A program made the position numbers and the translations under genes. Below, in pieces: positions 9,261 through 49,176 of a DNA stretch of 52,147 bases. The stretch lies in assembly GCA_021413735.1 (NCBI GenBank), contig JAIOPV010000014.1, positions 1 to 52,147 on the forward strand. The letters are read 5' to 3'. The notes under the pieces are model-generated. The model saw only the letters and a program-made list of their open reading frames with translations, was not told the DNA's origin and did not search any database. How positions within the stretch are numbered: the first letter of the stretch is position 1; each line of letters begins with the position of its first letter. The stretch is from Planctomycetota bacterium. Its GTDB lineage: Bacteria; Planctomycetota; Planctomycetia; Gemmatales; Gemmataceae.

Positions 9261-9372
9261 TTTGTAGCCGCGGATGCGGCGACCGAGTGTAGCCAGGGGT
9301 GCAGCGAGCGAAGCGAGCAAACCCCTGGAACCGTGCCCCACCAACCACCCAGCCCCGGAGGGGCGACAGAAC
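9261..9372. repeat. Left inverted arm of the Y1 element
   Basis: The 69 bp at 9261-9329 is an exact reverse complement of 9890-9958. The 23 bp at 9350-9372 is an exact reverse complement of 9847-9869. The 20 bp between the two blocks differs from its partner. Confidence 0.95.
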
Positions 9373-9385
9373 AAACCGGTGTCCT

Positions 9386-9838
9386 ATGCCGCAGACGTAC
9401 ACCTGCCTGCATTACCACCTCGTGTTCAGTACCAAGCACCGGCTCCCGAGGATCACGCCTGAGATTCAACCGCGTCTGTGGGAATACCTCGGAGGCGTCA
9501 TCCGTGGCCTGGGTGGAAAGCCGATTCAGGTTGGCGGCGTGGAAGATCACGTTCACCTGCTCGTAACGTTGCGGCAAGAAGCGGCCCTGAAGGACGTGTT
9601 GCGCGATCTTAAGTCTGGTTCATCTGGGTGGGTTCACGACATATTCCCGAACGTCACCGATTTCTGGTGGCAATCGGGTTACGGGGCGTTCACGGTGAGC
9701 CATTCCAACATTGAGGCTGTGAAGACGTACATTCAGAACCAAGCCAGGCACCACAATAAGCAATCGTTTCAGGACGAGTTGCGGGAGTTGTTCCGCAAAC
9801 ACGGCATCGAGTTCGACGAGAAGTATCTGTGGGATTGA
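9386..9838 (+). CDS. IS200-like Y1 transposase (RAYT/TnpA type)
   Basis: A 150-residue HUH endonuclease of the Y1 transposase family, which cuts and rejoins single-stranded DNA at hairpins. The HUH pair is visible in EDHVHLLV near residues 54-59, and the nucleophile is probably the tyrosine in VKTYIQNQARHH at about residue 115. Length and motifs are complete, so the enzyme is probably active. The ATG at 9386 begins the conserved domain (MPQTYTCLHYHLVFSTKHR). It lies inside nearly mirror-image arms rich in hairpins, its likely DNA substrates. The same TGTC-hairpin pattern recurs at 15175-15385 and 42681-42915. Confidence 0.93.
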   Translation: MPQTYTCLHYHLVFSTKHRLPRITPEIQPRLWEYLGGVIRGLGGKPIQVGGVEDHVHLLVTLRQEAALKDVLRDLKSGSSGWVHDIFPNVTDFWWQSGYGAFTVSHSNIEAVKTYIQNQARHHNKQSFQDELRELFRKHGIEFDEKYLWD

Positions 9839-9846
9839 GCGTGTTG

Positions 9847-9958
9847 GTTCTGTCGCCCCTCCGGGGCTGCGATTTTTATTGGCACACGGTCCAGGGGTTT
9901 GCTCGCTTCGCTCGCTGCACCCCTGGCTACACTCGGTCGCCGCATCCGCGGCTACAAA
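9847..9958. repeat. Right inverted arm of the Y1 element
   Basis: Mirror partner of 9261-9372. It contains TGTC at 9851-9854 directly followed by the hairpin GCCCCTCCGGGGC, the layout expected of a Y1 transposase recognition hairpin, and a longer imperfect hairpin at about 9891-9926. Confidence 0.95.
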
Positions 9959-16835: not shown

Positions 16836-16966
16836 GCCCTCTCTCCTTGCGGGAGAGGGCAGCGAGGCTTTGCGAGCGGGTGAGGGGTGAACTTTCCGAG
16901 ATGTTGAGGCTTAACCCCTCACCCGGCCGCGAAGCGCGGCTACCCTCTCCCGCAAGGGGAGAGGGC
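16836..16966. repeat. 131 bp palindromic element (family B, copy 1)
   Basis: Both ends carry the CCCTCTCC(C)CTTGCGGGAGAGGG-type hairpin in opposite orientation. Inside are two different short stems (GCGAGGCTTTGCGAGC and GGCCGCGAAGCGCGGC) and GGTGAGGGG/CCCCTCACC arms around a variable 25 bp centre. It is an inverted copy of 49045-49176. It lies between the DUF1501 and kelch genes. Confidence 0.9.
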
Positions 16967-27858: not shown

Positions 27859-30800
27859 ATGCGCCGACTCCGCAGAAGACCCCTCCCCAACCCCTCCCCT
27901 AAGGGGAGAGGGGCTAAAACCAAAGCCAGTTCTTGCTCCCCCTTCCTTCTGAGGGAAGGGGGTTGGGGGGTTAGGTTGCTTCTCGCCTTTCTTGCGTTGA
28001 TCGCGGCACAGCCGGCATTCGCGGCTGATCCCGTGTTCAAGCCCGCCGACATCTTCGACCTCGAATTCGCCAGTGACCCGCAAATCTCGCCTGACGGAAC
28101 GCGTGTCTCATTCGTTCGCAACTCGTTCGACGTGATGCGCGACCGTGCCCGCTCTCGGCTGTGGGTCGTGAACGCCGACGGCGGTGACCTTCGGCCGCTA
28201 TGCGACGGTGCAGGCAACGAGTCGTCGCCGCGTTGGTCGCCGGACGGGAAACGTGTCGCGTACATCTCGGATGCCAGCGGCAAGCCGCAGCTTCATTGCC
28301 TCTGGCTGGGCACTCGCGAGACGGCGAAACTCACGAGCCTTACGACAGCACCCACGGTGCCGGTGTGGTCGCCCGACGGCAAACAGATCGCGTTCGCGGC
28401 TTTCGTGGAACGTGTCGAGAAGCCGTACATCGAGATGCCCGCGAAGCCTGCCGGTGCAGAGTGGGCACCAGCTGCGAAGATGACCCGCGACACCACCTTC
28501 CGCCACGATGGGCTCGGTTACCTGAAGGCCGGCAATCGGCACGTGTTCGTGGTGTCGGCAGATGGCGGCGCAGCACGGCAAGTTACCACGGGGCCGCACG
28601 ACTATTGTGGGGCACGGTTCACGAAGCCCGAGCCGCCGGTGTGGTGTCCCGAAGGCAAGTCGCTAATCGTGTCGGCGTTTCGCAGGAAGGATGCAGGCGA
28701 CGATCCTTACGGTTCCGAACTGTTCGAGGTCGCGCTTGCCGACGGATCGCTGAGCCAATTCACCACTCGCACCGGTCCCGATCACAGCCCGACAATTTCC
28801 CCTGACGGCAAGCAGATCGCGTTCCTCGGTTTCGACGATAAGCGTGTCGCACATCAGCAAACGAAGCTGTACGTCATGAACCGCGACGGCAGCAACCAGC
28901 GACTCCTGAGCGAAAAGCTCGACCGCGAAGTCACGCACCCGCAGTGGGCCGCAGACAATCGCGGCGTGGTCGTGCAGTACCCGGAACACGGCGACATCAA
29001 GGTCGCGTTCGTCGATCTCGATGGGAAGGTGTCGGTGGTCGCGGAGAAGGTCGGCGGCGGCGATCTCGGTCGGCCGTACTCCTCCGGCAGTTACTCTGTG
29101 AGCAACGACGGTGCGGTCGCCTTCACGCTCGGAAGCTCGGATCGTCCTGCGGAAGTGGGACTCCGCACGCGAGCGAGCACGGCTGCGAAACGCCTCACGA
29201 CGTTGAACGAAAACCTGCTCGGGCATCGCACGCTTGGCGTCACGGAAGAGGTGTGGTTCCCCGCAGCCGACGGCAAGAAAATCCAGGCGTGGATGGTGAA
29301 GCCGCCGAACTTCGACCCGAAGAAGAAGTACCCGCTGATCCTCGAAATTCACGGCGGCCCGTATGCCGACTACGGACCCACGTTCGCCAGCGAAATCCAG
29401 CTCTACGCGGCAGCGGGCTACGTCGTCGTGTTCGTGAATCCACGCGGCAGCACCGGCTACGGCGAAACGTTCGCACAGCTTATCAACGGCACATACCCTG
29501 GCCCCGATTACGACGATCTGATGGGTGCCGTGGATGTCGTCGTGAAGAAGGGGTTCATCGACCCGCAAAGTCTCTTCGTCACGGGGGGCAGCGGCGGCGG
29601 CATCCTCACGGCGTGGATCGTCGGTAAGACGGATCGCTTCCGCGCTGCGGTGTCGTGCAAGCCGGCGATCAACTGGCAAAGCTTCGTGCTGACGGCCGAC
29701 ATTCCGGGCTTCTTCGCGAATTACTGGCTCTCGGCGATGCCGTGGGACAAGCCCGACGAGGCCATGAAGCGGTCGCCGTTGTCGCTGGTCGGCAAGGTGA
29801 AGACGCCGACGATGCTGCTGACCGGCGAGCAAGACCACCGCACGCCGATCTCGGAATCGGAGCAGTTCTACGCGGCCCTCAAGCTGCGTGGCATCGACAC
29901 GGCCCTCGTGCGATTCCCCGAAGCGTCGCACGCCATCGTGGACCGCCCGAGCCGCATGATCGCGAAGACGCTCTACATTCTCAAGTGGTTTGAGACATAC
30001 GCCAAGCCGAAGGGGATGCCGCGTGTCAGCGTGTCGCCCGACAAGAAGGGGTTCGTGCTGGAAGCGTCCGAGAAGAAGTTCGTGCCGTGGGGCTTCAACT
30101 ACGACCATGACGAAAAGGGCCGTCTGCTTGAGGACTACTGGGAAACGGAGTGGCCGAAGGTTGAGCGTGCGTTCCGCGACATGAAGAAGCTGGGCGCGAA
30201 CGTGGTTCGCGTTCACCTGCAACTCGGCAAGTTCATGGACACCGCCGAGAAGCGCAACGCGAAGGCTCTCGATCATCTGAAGAAGCTGCTCGCGCTCGCC
30301 GAGATTGAAGGGCTGTACCTCGATCTCACGGGGCTCGGGTGTTACCACAAGGCCGACGTGCCCGCGTGGTACGACAAGCTCTCGGAGCAAGATCGCTGGA
30401 ACACGCAGGCTCGTTTCTGGGAAGCGGTCGCGTCCGTGTGCGCGAGCAGTCCGGCCGTATTCTGCTACGACCTGATGAACGAGCCTGTGGTGCCCGCCGG
30501 GAAACGCAAGGATGCCGACTGGCTCGGGCCAGCGTTCGGCGGCAAGCACTTCGTGCAGGTTATCTCGCTCGACCAGAAAGACCGCCCGCGGCCCGAGATC
30601 GCGGCGCAGTGGATTCGCCATCTGAGCACGGCGATTCGCAAAGTCGACAAGCGACATCTCATCACGGTGGGGCTTGTCGATTGGAGCCTGGACCGCAAGG
30701 GGCTGACGTCTGGGTTCGTGCCGGACAAGATCATCGACGATCTCGATTTCGTGTGCGTTCACCTCTACCCGGAGAAGGGCAAACTCGAAGAAGCGATGAA

Positions 30801-31038
30801 GACGCTCGAAGGGTTCTCGCTCGGCAAGCCCGTCGTAATCGAGGAGACGTTCCCGTTGAAGTGTTCGATGGCGGAGTTCGGCGAGTTCGTCAAGAGTTCG
30901 CGGAAGCACGCTTGCGGTTGGGTCGGCTTCTACTGGGGCACGCCGCCCGAAGAATTGCGACAATCGAAGACGATCGGGGACGCCATTCAGTTGGGGTGGT
31001 TGGAGTTCTTCGAGAAGAACGCCAAGGCCGAGGAATAG
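27859..31038 (+). CDS. Fusion of prolyl-oligopeptidase-type S9 peptidase and GH5-like glycoside hydrolase
   Basis: A 1059-residue exported protein. After an interrupted signal peptide (hydrophobic RLLLAFLALIAAQPAFA at about 38-55) comes a WD40-like propeller of peptidase S9 (about 60-430), then the alpha/beta hydrolase domain with Ser in GGSGGG near 577, Asp in GEQDHRTP near 657 and His in SHAIV near 690. From about 715 a TIM-barrel-like domain resembles GH5, with the putative acid/base in YDLMNEPV near 874 and nucleophile in VIEETFPL near 994. A protease and a glycosidase in one chain suggests attack on glycoprotein or mixed polymers. The N-terminal region, residues about 6-38, is encoded by an inserted palindromic element. 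ATG 27859 is chosen; TTG 27853 is possible. GAGG lies upstream. Confidence 0.88.
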   Translation: MRRLRRRPLPNPSPKGRGAKTKASSCSPFLLREGGWGVRLLLAFLALIAAQPAFAADPVFKPADIFDLEFASDPQISPDGTRVSFVRNSFDVMRDRARSRLWVVNADGGDLRPLCDGAGNESSPRWSPDGKRVAYISDASGKPQLHCLWLGTRETAKLTSLTTAPTVPVWSPDGKQIAFAAFVERVEKPYIEMPAKPAGAEWAPAAKMTRDTTFRHDGLGYLKAGNRHVFVVSADGGAARQVTTGPHDYCGARFTKPEPPVWCPEGKSLIVSAFRRKDAGDDPYGSELFEVALADGSLSQFTTRTGPDHSPTISPDGKQIAFLGFDDKRVAHQQTKLYVMNRDGSNQRLLSEKLDREVTHPQWAADNRGVVVQYPEHGDIKVAFVDLDGKVSVVAEKVGGGDLGRPYSSGSYSVSNDGAVAFTLGSSDRPAEVGLRTRASTAAKRLTTLNENLLGHRTLGVTEEVWFPAADGKKIQAWMVKPPNFDPKKKYPLILEIHGGPYADYGPTFASEIQLYAAAGYVVVFVNPRGSTGYGETFAQLINGTYPGPDYDDLMGAVDVVVKKGFIDPQSLFVTGGSGGGILTAWIVGKTDRFRAAVSCKPAINWQSFVLTADIPGFFANYWLSAMPWDKPDEAMKRSPLSLVGKVKTPTMLLTGEQDHRTPISESEQFYAALKLRGIDTALVRFPEASHAIVDRPSRMIAKTLYILKWFETYAKPKGMPRVSVSPDKKGFVLEASEKKFVPWGFNYDHDEKGRLLEDYWETEWPKVERAFRDMKKLGANVVRVHLQLGKFMDTAEKRNAKALDHLKKLLALAEIEGLYLDLTGLGCYHKADVPAWYDKLSEQDRWNTQARFWEAVASVCASSPAVFCYDLMNEPVVPAGKRKDADWLGPAFGGKHFVQVISLDQKDRPRPEIAAQWIRHLSTAIRKVDKRHLITVGLVDWSLDRKGLTSGFVPDKIIDDLDFVCVHLYPEKGKLEEAMKTLEGFSLGKPVVIEETFPLKCSMAEFGEFVKSSRKHACGWVGFYWGTPPEELRQSKTIGDAIQLGWLEFFEKNAKAEE
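27874..27981 (+). repeat. In-frame palindromic element family C, copy 1
   Basis: Begins AGAAGACCCCTCC and ends near GGTTAGGTTGCTT, with two inner hairpins (CCCCTCCCCTAAGGGGAGAGGGG and CCCCCTTCC/GGGAAGGGGG). It lies inside the signal-peptide coding region of the S9-GH5 gene and is translated without a stop. It aligns closely with 40531-40628. Confidence 0.9.
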
Positions 31039-31766: not shown

Positions 31767-32895
31767 TTCGCCTGCCGATCGCCTGCGCCGCCACGCCACG
31801 GAACAACTCAAGACCCGATTCGTCGGTCGCGATGAAGTGATCGACCTGATCGCTCTCGCCGTGGTTGCCGGCGAGCATCTGTTTCTTTACGGCCCACCGG
31901 GAACCGCAAAGTCGCTGCTCGTGCGAGACTTCGCTGGTGCGGTGCGGTGTCGATACTTCGAGTACCTGCTGACGCGATTCTCGGAGCCGAACGAACTCTT
32001 CGGGCCGGTCGATCTCGCCAAACTGCGTGAAGGCGTCGTTGCCACAGTGACCACGGGAATGCTGCCCGAAGCCGAGTTCGCGTTCCTCGATGAACTCTTC
32101 AACGCGAACAGCGCCATCCTCAACAACCTCCTCACGGTGCTGAACGAACGGGTCTATCGACGTGGTTCGGAAACGCATCGGCTTCCGCTCCTCAGCGTGT
32201 TCGCGGCGTCGAACCATCTTCCCGAAGACGACGCCCTTCAAGCTCTCTTCGACCGCTTCCTGCTACGATGCAAAGTGGATTCGCTATCGCCGACGCAGTT
32301 GCCTGGGTTACTCGCGGCTGGTTGGGCCATCGAACGCAACGGCAAACCACACACAGAAATAACCGACGCACCCACTGCCGACGATCTGCGAGAACTGACA
32401 CGCCTGGCGAAGGATGTCAATCTTGCCGGCGTGCTGGAACCTTACGCAGATGCGGTGACGAAGGTGCGTGATCTGGGCGTCGGCTTGTCGGATCGTCGGG
32501 CGGTGAAGGTGCTGAAGCTGATCGCAGCGTCGGCAGTGATGTGCGGGCGAACTGCTGCGAATCCCTCGGATCTGTGGGTTCTCCGCTATGTGTGGGACCG
32601 TGCGGAACAGATCGGACCGCTGGGTACGCTCGTGTCGGGTATTCTGGAACGCACACCCGATGCAGCCGTGCCGCACCCGCGAGCACGACGCCCCGAAGCT
32701 GTCGACCCCGAAACGCTCGCGGCGGAACTGGAAGTTGCAGAGCGTGAACTGAAGTCGGGGCTGAAGTTGGTCGAACTCGCTCGGCTTCGCGAGCGAGTTC
32801 AGGCGGTTGCCGACCGTGCCGCGTGGGTGACGGATGTTGCGGGTCGCGGTCATCTCCTGAAGAAGACCGCCGGGTTGCTGGAGAAGCTCGGATGA
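31759..32895 (+). CDS. MoxR-family AAA+ ATPase (RavA-like)
   Basis: A 378-residue cytoplasmic AAA+ ATPase of the MoxR/RavA group, chaperone-like motors that usually work with von Willebrand A proteins. Walker A is GPPGTAKSLLVRDF at about 45-58, Walker B is EFAFLDELFNANSAIL near 110, sensor-1 is SVFAASNHLPEDDALQALFDRFLLR, and the C-terminal lid and LARA-like helical region run to the end. The ATG is preceded by GAGGAAG within the end of the upstream gene. It ends in an ATGA overlap with the bpX6-like gene. No vWA partner follows in this window. Confidence 0.93.
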   Translation: MPDSPADRLRRHATEQLKTRFVGRDEVIDLIALAVVAGEHLFLYGPPGTAKSLLVRDFAGAVRCRYFEYLLTRFSEPNELFGPVDLAKLREGVVATVTTGMLPEAEFAFLDELFNANSAILNNLLTVLNERVYRRGSETHRLPLLSVFAASNHLPEDDALQALFDRFLLRCKVDSLSPTQLPGLLAAGWAIERNGKPHTEITDAPTADDLRELTRLAKDVNLAGVLEPYADAVTKVRDLGVGLSDRRAVKVLKLIAASAVMCGRTAANPSDLWVLRYVWDRAEQIGPLGTLVSGILERTPDAAVPHPRARRPEAVDPETLAAELEVAERELKSGLKLVELARLRERVQAVADRAAWVTDVAGRGHLLKKTAGLLEKLG

Positions 32896-33767
32896 CCAAA
32901 GGCAACCCCACCCCCAACCCCAATCAGACTCCCCCTTCCTTTTTAGGGAAGGGGGTTGGGGGGTTAGGTTCTGGAAACGCTAACCCCTCCCCAACCCCTC
33001 CCCTAAGAGGAGAGGGGCTTCAAACCAAGACCGGGTTAGGTTCTTGCACTGATCGTTGGCGTGAAGTTGTCGCCGCTCGCATTCCCGCAACGTGCCTCGA
33101 CGCGCTCGGACCTGTGCGAAACGTCGATGGCGTGCGGATTCATCCGGTCGGCGAAACCGCGTGGGTGTGCTGGCCTGTCGGCCGTGCGGATGTCGTGCGG
33201 TGCTTGTTGCCGGTGCCGGGCGTGGTGCTGTTCCAACGCCGACGCGGTGCCTGGTTTAAGTTCGGGAGTCGGCTTCCTTCGTCCGATGTGCCGCCAGATG
33301 GCGAGGGGCATCCGCTGACAGCGATGTTGGTTCCCGCGAAGTTCGGAGCAGCCGCGCCGCCGACCGCTCTTCTCGTGCCCAAGGTGGTGAGTGTTCAGCG
33401 TGGGGGCGAACCAAAGCCCGCGAGCGCGTTGGTTTGCACCGTGAGGGAATTGCAGAAATGGGCCGACGTCGCGACGACAGCCGAACTCGCGGCCGTGCGT
33501 GCGGTTCGTTCGGGCGAGCGTGTTGTGCTGATGGGTTCGCGTTTGCCTGCGGTTCCCGGTGCGGTTCGCTTCTGGGGCAAGGATGTGCTGGTGCCGGTGG
33601 GCTTTCGACCCGATCCCGAACTGTCGGCGGTGGCGTTGCGGCTTGCGTGCGGTGTCGCCGAGAATGAACTGCTATTGCTCGACGAATCCGGTGCGGAGGT
33701 GATCCCTTGTCGCGTATTCGAGGCGTTATCCCGAGCAAGCATCCGACTGACAGTGCGGGACGCCTGA
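32892..33767 (+). CDS. bpX6-like protein with an inserted repeat-encoded N-terminus
   Basis: A 291-residue protein. From about residue 50 it is beta-rich with tryptophan and arginine residues typical of bpX6 domains (AWVCWPVGRADVVRCLLPVPGVVLF, RFWGKDVLVPVGFRPDP); this assignment is probable but from memory. It is coupled to MoxR by an ATGA overlap, so it belongs to the same system. Residues about 4-47 (NPTPNPNQTPPSFLGKG and on) are encoded by a palindromic repeat at 32902-33046, so its natural start may have been different before the insertion. Nothing suggests an enzyme. Next on this strand are only a 33-codon ORF and non-coding DNA. Confidence 0.75.
   Translation: MTKGNPTPNPNQTPPSFLGKGVGGLGSGNANPSPTPPLRGEGLQTKTGLGSCTDRWREVVAARIPATCLDALGPVRNVDGVRIHPVGETAWVCWPVGRADVVRCLLPVPGVVLFQRRRGAWFKFGSRLPSSDVPPDGEGHPLTAMLVPAKFGAAAPPTALLVPKVVSVQRGGEPKPASALVCTVRELQKWADVATTAELAAVRAVRSGERVVLMGSRLPAVPGAVRFWGKDVLVPVGFRPDPELSAVALRLACGVAENELLLLDESGAEVIPCRVFEALSRASIRLTVRDA
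32902..33046 (+). repeat. In-frame palindromic element family C, copy 2 (double)
   Basis: Contains a right-half unit (CCCCCTTCC...GGGAAGGGGG...GGTTAGGTTCT) followed by a left-half unit (TAACCCCTCCCCAACCCC...GAGAGGGG) and ends GGGTTAGGTTCTT. It lies in frame in the 5' part of the bpX6-like gene. The order of halves is swapped relative to copies 1 and 3. Confidence 0.85.
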
Positions 33768-39675: not shown

Positions 39676-39874
39676 TGGCCTTCCCCCGCTCGCAATGATT
39701 CACTCTACTATTCCCGAGAAATCACTCCCAGATGGTTGACATCAATCGGGTTCGCGAAAAACTCTCAGCCGATTGGCCGGCTGTGTCGGAGAATACGCCT
39801 TCCTGATTCAAGCGAAGCGTTCCCCCCAACCGCCACACTCGGTGCTGCGGGCCAACTCGACAAACGAGGCGCAC

Positions 39875-41323
39875 ATGGAGTTTGCAGGGTTTGCGGCACT
39901 GACGGTCATCGTCCTCGCGGTCTGGATGGTCGTGAAGGGTTGGGATGTACGGCTCGTGCTGCTCGTGTCGTCGCTGCTCATTGCTGCGGGCGCGAGCGTG
40001 TCAGCCCAACCCGGACACCAACACGACGCGGTTGCGGGAGTGCTGCGAACCTTCCTCGCGACGTTCTCGAACGAGAAGTTCGTGGTGCCGATCTGCTCGG
40101 CGATGGGCTTCGCTTACGTGTTGCGACACACCGGTTGCGAACGGCATCTCGTGCTGCTGCTCGTGAAGCCGTTGCGATATGTCCGATGGTTGCTCGTGCC
40201 CGGCGTGCTGCTCGTCGGCTTCCTCGTGAACATCCCCGTCATCAGTCAGACGAGTACGGCTGTGTGCATCGGGCCGGTGATTGTGCCATTGATGCGGGCC
40301 GCACGCTACTCGATGGCGACGATCGGGGCGTGTCTGTTGCTCGGTGCGTCGGTGGGTGGGGAGCTGCTGAACCCCGGTGCGCCCGAGTTGCTCACGGTCG
40401 CTGCGGCAACGGGTGTTTCGACGATCGAGCAGACGCACAGGTACATTCCAAAGTTGGTGTTTACGCAACTCGCGGTGTCGATGCTGGTGTTCTGGGTCAT
40501 GAGCATCTGGTGGGAACGCAAGGCCAACTCAGAAGACCCCTCCCCCAACCCCCTCCCCCAAGGGGAGAGGGGGCAAAATCCGGCTCCCCCTTCCTTCTTA
40601 GGGAAGGGGGATGGGGGGTTAGGTTCTTCCGAACCACCCGAACGCATCAATCTGCTGAAGGCGTTCGTGCCGTTGGTGCCGCTCATGTTGCTGTTCGCGT
40701 CCGGGATGCCCGAAGGCTACAAGCTGTTCGACATCCCCGACGAGTGGGTGATTCTTCCCAAAGACGGCAAACGCGACACAGCCTACAGTTCGCGGCTCAT
40801 CGGGCTGGCCATGCTCGTTGGCGTGCTCGCAGCCGCAGCGGTCACGCCGTCGAAGTCGCGAGACTGCGTGAAGCAATTCTTCGACGGTGCCGGCTATGGC
40901 TTCGCGAATGTGGTGAGCCTCATCGTCATCGCGACGTGCTTTGGGAACGCCATCGAAGCGGCGGGGTTGGCGAAAGCGCTCGGCCTGCTCATTACGGGAA
41001 CGCCGGAGTTGATGCAACCGTTGGCAGGCTTCGTGCCACTGAGTTTCGCGACGATCAGCGGTTCGGGAATGGCCAGCACGCAAAGTCTGTACGGCTTCTT
41101 CTATCAACCGGCGCTTGACCTCAAGCTCGATCCCGTGGACGTGGGAGCGTTGGTTTCGCTGGGAAGTGCGGCGGGTCGAACGATGTCGCCAGTCGCGGCT
41201 GTGACGTTGATGTGCGGCACGCTGACCGGCACGAATCCGTTCACGCTGGCGAAGCGGGTCGCGGTGCCGCTGCTCGTGGGAATGATCGTCGTCGTGGTCT
41301 TGCGAATCGCTGGAGTGTTGTAG
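39875..41323 (+). CDS. DcuC-like C4-dicarboxylate/anion carrier with in-frame repeat insertion
   Basis: A 482-residue inner-membrane carrier with about 11 hydrophobic segments. The pattern (VVPICSAMGFAYVLRHTG, NIPVISQTSTAVCIGPVIVPL, GASVGGELLNPGAPELLTVAA, SFATISGSGMASTQSLYGFF) fits the DcuC/ion-transporter superfamily that exchanges or exports C4-dicarboxylates; the substrate is not certain. Between two membrane segments, residues about 219-250 (PSPNPLPQGERGQNPAPP and on) come from a palindromic repeat at 40531-40628. The frame is unbroken across it, and the insertion sits in a loop. ATG 39875 has ACGAGG upstream. The gene is divergent from a small membrane protein. Confidence 0.85.
   Translation: MEFAGFAALTVIVLAVWMVVKGWDVRLVLLVSSLLIAAGASVSAQPGHQHDAVAGVLRTFLATFSNEKFVVPICSAMGFAYVLRHTGCERHLVLLLVKPLRYVRWLLVPGVLLVGFLVNIPVISQTSTAVCIGPVIVPLMRAARYSMATIGACLLLGASVGGELLNPGAPELLTVAAATGVSTIEQTHRYIPKLVFTQLAVSMLVFWVMSIWWERKANSEDPSPNPLPQGERGQNPAPPSFLGKGDGGLGSSEPPERINLLKAFVPLVPLMLLFASGMPEGYKLFDIPDEWVILPKDGKRDTAYSSRLIGLAMLVGVLAAAAVTPSKSRDCVKQFFDGAGYGFANVVSLIVIATCFGNAIEAAGLAKALGLLITGTPELMQPLAGFVPLSFATISGSGMASTQSLYGFFYQPALDLKLDPVDVGALVSLGSAAGRTMSPVAAVTLMCGTLTGTNPFTLAKRVAVPLLVGMIVVVVLRIAGVL
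40531..40628 (+). repeat. In-frame palindromic element family C, copy 3
   Basis: Begins AGAAGACCCC and ends GGTTAGGTTCTT, 98 bp, with inner hairpins CCCCCTCCC/GGGGAGAGGGGG and CCCCCTTCC/GGGAAGGGGG. It is fully within the DcuC-like coding region and open in the frame used. Copy 1 shares both ends and both inner hairpins but is read in a different frame. Confidence 0.92.
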
Positions 41324-49044: not shown

Positions 49045-49176
49045 GCCCTCTCCCCTTGCGGGAGAGGGTGGCCGCGCTTCGCGGCCGGGTGAGGGGGCAA
49101 GCCTCAACGGTTGCAGCGCTTTTACCCCTCACCCGCTCGCAAAGCCTCGCTGCCCTCTCCCGCAAGGGGAGAGGGC
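49045..49176. repeat. 132 bp palindromic element (family B, copy 2)
   Basis: An inverted copy of 16836-16966: the terminal hairpins CCCTCTCCCCTTGCGGGAGAGGG and inner stems (GGCCGCGCTTCGCGGCC on one side, GCTCGCAAAGCCTCGC on the other) match in reverse order; only the centre differs. It separates the DUF447 gene from the beta-RFAP synthase remnant. Confidence 0.92.

Follow-up and report, generated by a model that had tools for sequence, protein, structure and literature searches.

Palindromic repeats that sit in frame within protein genes are best known from reduced intracellular bacteria such as Rickettsia and Wolbachia, in which their tolerance could be attributed to weak selection. REPs, for their part, are mostly extragenic, and NCBIfam contains models for the Rickettsia palindromic elements (RPEs). 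The portions of the literature drawn on here describe RPEs as palindromic, ~100-150 bp long, and present in frame in conserved genes as well as in intergenic DNA (PMC3767692, PMC2229807, PMC10969869). Different RPE groups are reported at the same loci of orthologues, with insertion hotspots as one of two proposed readings (PMC3767692), and the product of an RPE-bearing guanylate kinase is reported to be made and active (PMC2229807). In-frame palindromic insertions are also on record as the Wolbachia palindromic elements and the coding palindromes of Methanocaldococcus jannaschii (cited in PMC2996958), while the ERIC and Correia/NEMIS MITEs are small inverted-repeat elements with open frames and in-frame fusions to host genes (PMC2229807). 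For Planctomycetes, the portion drawn on covers GTAG/CGTC repeats, mentions the Rickettsia elements as background and terms REPs extragenic (PMC3733652). Literature searches for coding palindromes in Planctomycetes listed no paper describing them, in agreement with the initial annotation of this locus, whose author knew of none. In-frame palindromic repeats are already known, then; the occurrence in Planctomycetes, the two-hairpin design, the use of both orientations and the re-used slots are what differ in the case reported here.

The window, by which we mean the whole 52,147-nt stretch of Gemmataceae DNA under analysis, holds three copies of a palindromic element. We favor, at a probability of roughly 0.8, the reading that this is a small non-autonomous mobile element of REPIN/MITE type whose surviving gene insertions are read in frame at tolerant sites. 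The copies and their hosts are as follows.

27859 to 31038, forward strand: S9 peptidase with a C-terminal GH5-like part, host of copy 1; ATG 27859 is the presumed start, TTG 27976 an alternative
27874 to 27981, forward strand: element copy 1, probably the n-region of a signal peptide, from sequence and translation; sense frame FLLREGGWGVR
32892 to 33767, forward strand: bpX2-domain protein, host of copy 2; its ATG overlaps the stop of the preceding gene
32902 to 33046, forward strand: element copy 2, with its halves reversed (right unit, then left unit), near the N-terminus, from sequence and translation
39872 to 41323, forward strand: DcuC-family carrier, host of copy 3, from profile matches and orthologues; start uncertain, frame open from 39773
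40531 to 40628, forward strand: element copy 3, in which short terminal inverted repeats enclose a left hairpin, a spacer and a right hairpin; from sequence, translation, the genome-wide family and predicted folds
40549 to 40572, forward strand: left inner hairpin of copy 3, a predicted DNA fold
40585 to 40611, forward strand: right inner hairpin of copy 3, a predicted DNA fold

Copy 3 (AGAAGACCCC...GGTTAGGTTCTT) is the 98 bp element with matching ends and two inner hairpins that had first been noticed, and its predicted fold is an outer stem with two hairpins. Folds of the element barely beat dinucleotide shuffles (z -1.2 to -2.8 across the strands and copies folded); these z-scores and the frame-openness shuffle test given below are weak, and neither is used as proof. 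The stop-free translation of copy 3 is SEDPSPNPLPQGERGQNPAPPSFLGKGDGGLGSS, and it occupies residues 220-253 of a DcuC-family carrier (Pfam PF03606; NCBIfam DcuC_1), flanked by hydrophobic stretches at 192-214 and 258-280. Its placement in a loop between membrane segments, with the frame unbroken, had been proposed from the letters and is borne out by translation, profile match, hydropathy plot and alignments; a three-sequence structure prediction (mean pLDDT 34) was set aside. Among relatives, the DcuC orthologues of genomes G022 and G016 are 77% identical to the host over the best segment. The loop has no recognizable element in G016 and several other relatives; in G019, G010, G009, G017, G024 and G012 it holds peptides resembling the element, in one or the other orientation.

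The initial annotation had also placed closely related copies in frame inside two unrelated genes. This is so for copy 2, where the bpX2 domain begins at residue 62, ahead of the gene caller's chosen start, and no in-frame ATG, GTG or TTG was read between copy and domain. For copy 1 it is likely, given a start of the S9 peptidase at ATG 27859; the gene caller starts this host at TTG 27976, close to where the element ends. Copy 1 is indeed read in another frame (FLLREGGWGVR) than copies 2 and 3. In the window's other strong inverted repeats (those of at least 30 nt listed), the arms fall in the gaps between predicted genes. One weak pair at 74%, I11, lies in two genes and looks like chance.

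Across the genome, a 9.8-Mb draft in 293 contigs, a pattern built on the 26-base right unit has 59 matches at up to 3 mismatches, and its reversed control has 0. Matches 37 and 42 share their flanks with one mismatch and lie on overlapping contig ends; they are probably one copy, giving 58 in the genome. The count of 59 is a lower bound, because a 26-base pattern with 3 mismatches cannot detect degraded copies. A left-half pattern occurs at 51 places, some of them away from any listed right unit (e.g. C16, C57, C230), and its built-in control is uninformative because the pattern reads the same backwards. Both halves, each on its own strand, start with AGAACC, which leads through CCCCAACCCC into a hairpin; the element thus pairs two related units in inverted orientation. 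The consensus terminal inverted repeats are GAAGAACC.../...GGTTCTTC, with ends AAGA/CTTC, and past the outermost 3-4 nt no position exceeds 0.3 bit in the 46 full-length copies. The best copies are 98% identical to the window copy, which suggests recent spread. That nothing mobile is present, and that a low-complexity loop has simply expanded or the assembly is at fault, is scarcely credible: the sequence is G/C-rich and of low complexity and the assembly is a draft, but closely similar bipartite copies turn up in either orientation at dozens of sites unrelated to one another, and G010 and G012, which are near-closed at 1 and 3 contigs, have copies too.

At 1 mismatch, the unit pattern is found in 19 of 95 genomes of the family, comprising 12 of the 19 genomes of the genus, this one included, and 7 in other genera. 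It is found in 0 of 391 other sampled genomes of the phylum, a list that holds no other members of the family or order. One genome of another genus in the family (G088) has 220 unit matches, against 55 in the genome studied here at the same setting.

The gene context of these copies was read with a gene caller based on a simple codon-usage model, trained on the fetched stretches and blind to the element, which assigns a coding fraction of 0.88. By this caller 35 of the 59 matches lie within genes without loss of frame on either side, 16 in sense and 19 in antisense orientation. A hand check adds nine in-frame matches (0, 1, 7, 8, 12, 22, 37, 42, 43), which lie at a gene terminus or in an open frame that the caller had split. 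The 15 matches left are intergenic or unclear, and one of them (L053) may cut a gene's end short. The earlier statement that all copies are inside genes therefore holds for the window, where copy 27874 is likely genic, and not for the genome. Two further genomes of the genus give a similar picture, with most of the sampled clusters in frame within genes: 28 of 38 clusters in G012 and 27 of 41 in G010 (37 stretches in each case, among the matches listed). Nevertheless, the in-gene share is 59% by the caller, or 75% with hand calls, versus a coding fraction of 0.88 for the same stretches, and it is also below the coding fraction in G012 (0.86) and G010 (0.85). Genes are thus not favored over intergenic DNA.

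For comparison, a second family of palindromic doublets present in the window was used as a control. This family (CCCTCTCCCCTTGCGGGAGAGGG, mostly inverted pairs ~105 nt apart, in the window at 16837-16965 and 49046-49175) has 47 clusters, of which 42 were examined (2 from the window, 40 fetched). With the same caller, 7 of the 42 are inside genes and 35 between them, so that the two families differ clearly in their genic share (35/58 vs 7/42, Fisher p = 1.3e-5). The further claim of the initial annotation, that other repeat families stay between genes, describes the window's strong repeats well but fails genome-wide for this family. Its seven genic copies (L288, L297, L308, L313, L319, L322, L325) are in frame as PSPLAGEG...PPSPARGEG, and the phenomenon therefore goes beyond one family. 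By eye, hosts of the second family look like QueA (L313), RNase R (L308) and a P-type ATPase (L319).

The element's right unit is stop-free in four of its six orientation/phase classes, and both orientations are used, which extends the earlier observation that it is open in at least two frames. Units within genes fall into sense classes s2 and s0 and antisense classes a1 and a0 as follows: 16 s2, 12 a1, 8 a0 and 1 s0 in the genome studied here; 14, 17, 2 and 0 in G012; and 16, 19, 1 and 0 in G010. The two stop-bearing classes are empty because the gene call itself requires this, and since 199 of 2000 shuffles have at least four open frames, openness by itself is unremarkable. The length between the conserved ends is divisible by three in 43 of 46 full-length copies, which are not independent of one another. 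This holds for 26 of 29 gene-spanning copies and also for 12 of 12 assigned by the caller to intergenic DNA, so that length is a family trait and not proof of selection. The common peptides are Pro- and Gly-rich (NPSPTPP...PPSFLGKGVGGLGSS and EPNPPTPFPKKEGG), and annotators would do well to treat them as repeat DNA rather than domains. Both inspected readings of class s0 (FLLREGGWGVR; window copy 27874 and L064) adjoin a hydrophobic segment. As this open class is rarely used and is found in such a setting, what the peptide contains seems to count along with the open frame.

The element could instead be removed before or during translation, by intron-like excision or by ribosomal bypass at a strong hairpin, and stable RNA-level hairpins are indeed predicted. 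Removal needs no open frame, however, while gene-spanning copies carry no stop in the frame of the host (a property partly built into the gene call) and nearly all have a length of 3n when complete; an Rfam scan of the window gave no family reaching its gathering score. We regard removal as very improbable.

The hosts are diverse. Pfam was scanned with 37 host proteins (the 35 gene-spanning cases and two from the window), two of which have no match. Those with matches include MnmG/GidA, a PurA-like adenylosuccinate synthetase, MutL, TilS (also by NCBIfam), a polyprenyl synthetase, the Lnt N-terminal domain, a P-type ATPase, a methyltransferase, amine oxidases, helicases and mannosyltransferase-like membrane proteins, and six hosts in this genome are DUF1549/DUF1553 proteins. 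The genes serving tRNA modification and the synthesis of isoprenoids and coenzyme A are expected to be needed. Solved homologues were compared for five hosts. The insert is missing from the homologue of MnmG (2zxh, between residues 151 and 154), of TilS (3a2k, between residues 153 and 160), of the farnesyl-diphosphate-synthase-like host (7my6, between residues 172 and 177) and of the PPCDC-type host (1qzu, between residues 65 and 71). In the chalcone-synthase-like host, two matched stretches flank the insert together with some unaligned residues, which is consistent with absence from the homologue. Closer at hand, G016, which by DcuC and MnmG identity is the nearest relative, has no insert in DcuC, MnmG or the PurA-like gene, the three genes compared; here orthologues do lack the peptide. 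With most sampled copies of G012 and G010 in frame within genes, neither of the refuting outcomes named in the initial annotation was observed. A DNA alignment of the empty MnmG site leaves the insertion ends unfixed. The MnmG loop carries unrelated inverted-repeat peptides instead of the element in G022, G024, G026 and G019.

The same loop is filled by unrelated inverted-repeat peptides at loci L126, L127, L128, L129 and L131, and in the nearest relative it holds a 14-nt perfect palindrome, AGCCGCTAGCGGCT.

To compare sites between genomes, hosts were paired by reciprocal best match at a minimum of 50% identity (39 hosts in the genome studied here, 27 in G012, 26 in G010), and sites were called the same when the units lay within 60 alignment columns. 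All 11 pairs with G012 share the site, eight in the same orientation and three in the opposite one, as do all five pairs with G010. Combined, 14 of 14 hosts with a sampled occupied orthologue share the site: eight in the same orientation (at one of these, L050, the halves come in the other order), five in the opposite orientation (TilS, ThiF-like, DcuC and two mannosyltransferase-like proteins) and one mixed. Spacers at the shared sites vary in length and sequence in the alignments, and some hosts carry an extra copy elsewhere (e.g. L197). Between G010 and G012, nine pairs were found and two dropped (L256/L222 and L258/L213, where the 95 and 73 residues aligned are mainly element); the remaining seven of seven agree in place and orientation. 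Elements are thus inherited between close species, whereas at greater distance the slot is kept and its content has often changed.

These shared sites bear on a possible, if somewhat doubtful, alternative: that the insertions are ancestral to the genus and that gene conversion, inversion or re-insertion later altered the resident element where it stood. This departs from the mobile-element reading solely in how slots become shared. About 0.14 shared hosts would be expected by chance (a rough figure for 39 and 27 hosts drawn from an estimated ~7,500 genes), and the complete agreement of sites in the 14 hosts is far above this; moreover, the constant orientation between G010 and G012 is what descent would give, and the slots are often composite. 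Set against ancestry are the opposite or mixed orientations at six of the 14 sites with their divergent spacers, the three genes that are empty in G016, and the site in DUF1553 proteins, which is filled in distant paralogues whose orthologues or tree neighbors are empty.

At several G010 loci (L225, L229, L246, L247, L253), pieces of a third in-frame repeat family, such as PTPPSPLPEGKGE and SPFPSGRGDGGVGSS, are nested in or beside the element in the same slot.

The DUF1549/DUF1553 family is very large in this genome, with 107 matches to PF07587 (PSD1 domain), some genes having two. All six element copies in these proteins lie at profile position 60-67. On a tree of 41 sequences (30 of the matches listed and 11 element bearers), the element label needs seven changes, at least six of them by supported branches, as gains or losses at one site. 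In two orthologue pairs (L195/L165 and L209/L163) one member is filled and the other empty; ~2-4 host codons are replaced, and no target-site duplication was seen in either pair. Unlike copies at other sites, those in DUF1553 proteins occupy one and the same position in sense orientation in 11 of 11 sequences, a bias that could come from target preference, from conversion between paralogues or from selection on the peptide.

This last point would fit a useful peptide, that is, a flexible linker or regulatory loop kept by selection rather than merely tolerated, as would the scant use of the open s0 class (1/37 units in this genome, 0/33 in G012, 0/36 in G010) with both inspected readings beside a hydrophobic segment. 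We consider this unlikely. Five slots, in TilS, the ThiF-like protein, DcuC and two mannosyltransferase-like proteins, take both orientations and so different peptides, the MnmG slot takes unrelated repeats, and many of the relatives compared have nothing there.

Under the mobile-element reading, the element would consist of two C/G-rich hairpins, inverted relative to each other, with AGAACC...GGTTCT as short terminal repeats, and would have spread in some Gemmataceae by inserting into genes as well as intergenic DNA. We infer such movement because near-identical copies are dispersed and empty sites exist. With a right unit that is stop-free in most classes and a length nearly always of 3n, insertions in frame would be possible. 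Those landing in an open class within a tolerant loop or near a terminus would then be translated as a Pro/Gly-rich linker of ~30 residues and survive, and other insertions into genes would presumably be purged by selection. Tolerated sites could become slots that are refilled, sometimes by a copy in the opposite orientation or by another repeat family. Judged from the open frame, translation would occur in the cell; functional proteins would probably gain a 30-residue loop from the element in frame, with a presumably near-neutral effect on the host protein.

Mobilization would occur in trans, by a putative enzyme. RAYT (PF01797) was considered as a linked mobilizer; this genome has 11 matches, with more in the genus. 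An element half was found in the flanks of 0 of 39 loci at up to 4 edits, for part of the PF01797 matches, and since 30 control loci also gave 0, the scan shows absence rather than depletion. G010 has no PF01797 match at E 0.001 despite its 49 unit matches. On these two counts, RAYT was rejected as the linked mobilizer.

Set beside the published descriptions, the element appears, with good confidence, to work like an RPE, the likeness being one of the way of working. Like an RPE it is a many-copy palindrome (59 matches; ~98 bp with its ends, close to the lower limit of RPE lengths), in frame in unrelated genes (37 hosts scanned) and absent from orthologues, as judged from three genes in G016, solved homologues for five hosts and two filled/empty pairs. 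The resemblance to RPEs put forward in the initial annotation accordingly stands for this mode, in frame in many hosts, and is not a claim of descent. Unlike RPEs, the element belongs to another phylum and has two separate G/C-rich hairpins, and it occurs in both orientations and four frame classes, with opposite orientations at one site and re-used slots. Seven hosts compared with NCBIfam (E 0.1) gave no RPE-named model among the matches listed (for MnmG, 25 of 45). Going by the portions of text that cite them, the Wolbachia and M. jannaschii palindromes are likewise in frame in protein genes. Two inverted hairpin units, a shared 5' head (AGAACC) and many copies, some of them clustered, recall a REPIN, although the element ends have no GTAG or CGTC tag (by eye, on the consensus) and, unlike in REP/RAYT systems, no RAYT gene is flanked by the element in the 39 loci. 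The terminal inverted repeats are those of a MITE, and open frames fused to host genes are shared with ERIC and Correia elements, from whose descriptions the element differs in the missing target-site duplication in the two filled/empty pairs.

A broader reading, to which we give slightly less than even odds, is that protein loops of Gemmataceae are long-lived docking slots for many palindromic families, filled and refilled in either direction at matching codon positions of orthologues and paralogues, and so a steady source of new protein sequence. If this were true, in-frame repeat turnover would be such a source and no mere curiosity. Here the element lies in genomes of 5-12 Mb, within genes for tRNA modification, isoprenoid and coenzyme A synthesis, a setting distinct from that of the reduced intracellular bacteria. 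Slots filled in opposite orientations would serve as natural replicates, indicating which loops can take 30 extra residues of foreign origin, and whether what counts is the peptide or just its open frame.

Elsewhere in the window, a Y1-transposase gene (PF01797 match at 9401-9742) lies within 9261-9958, flanked by 116-nt inverted repeats that are 88% complementary, and this stretch is possibly a self-contained mobile element.
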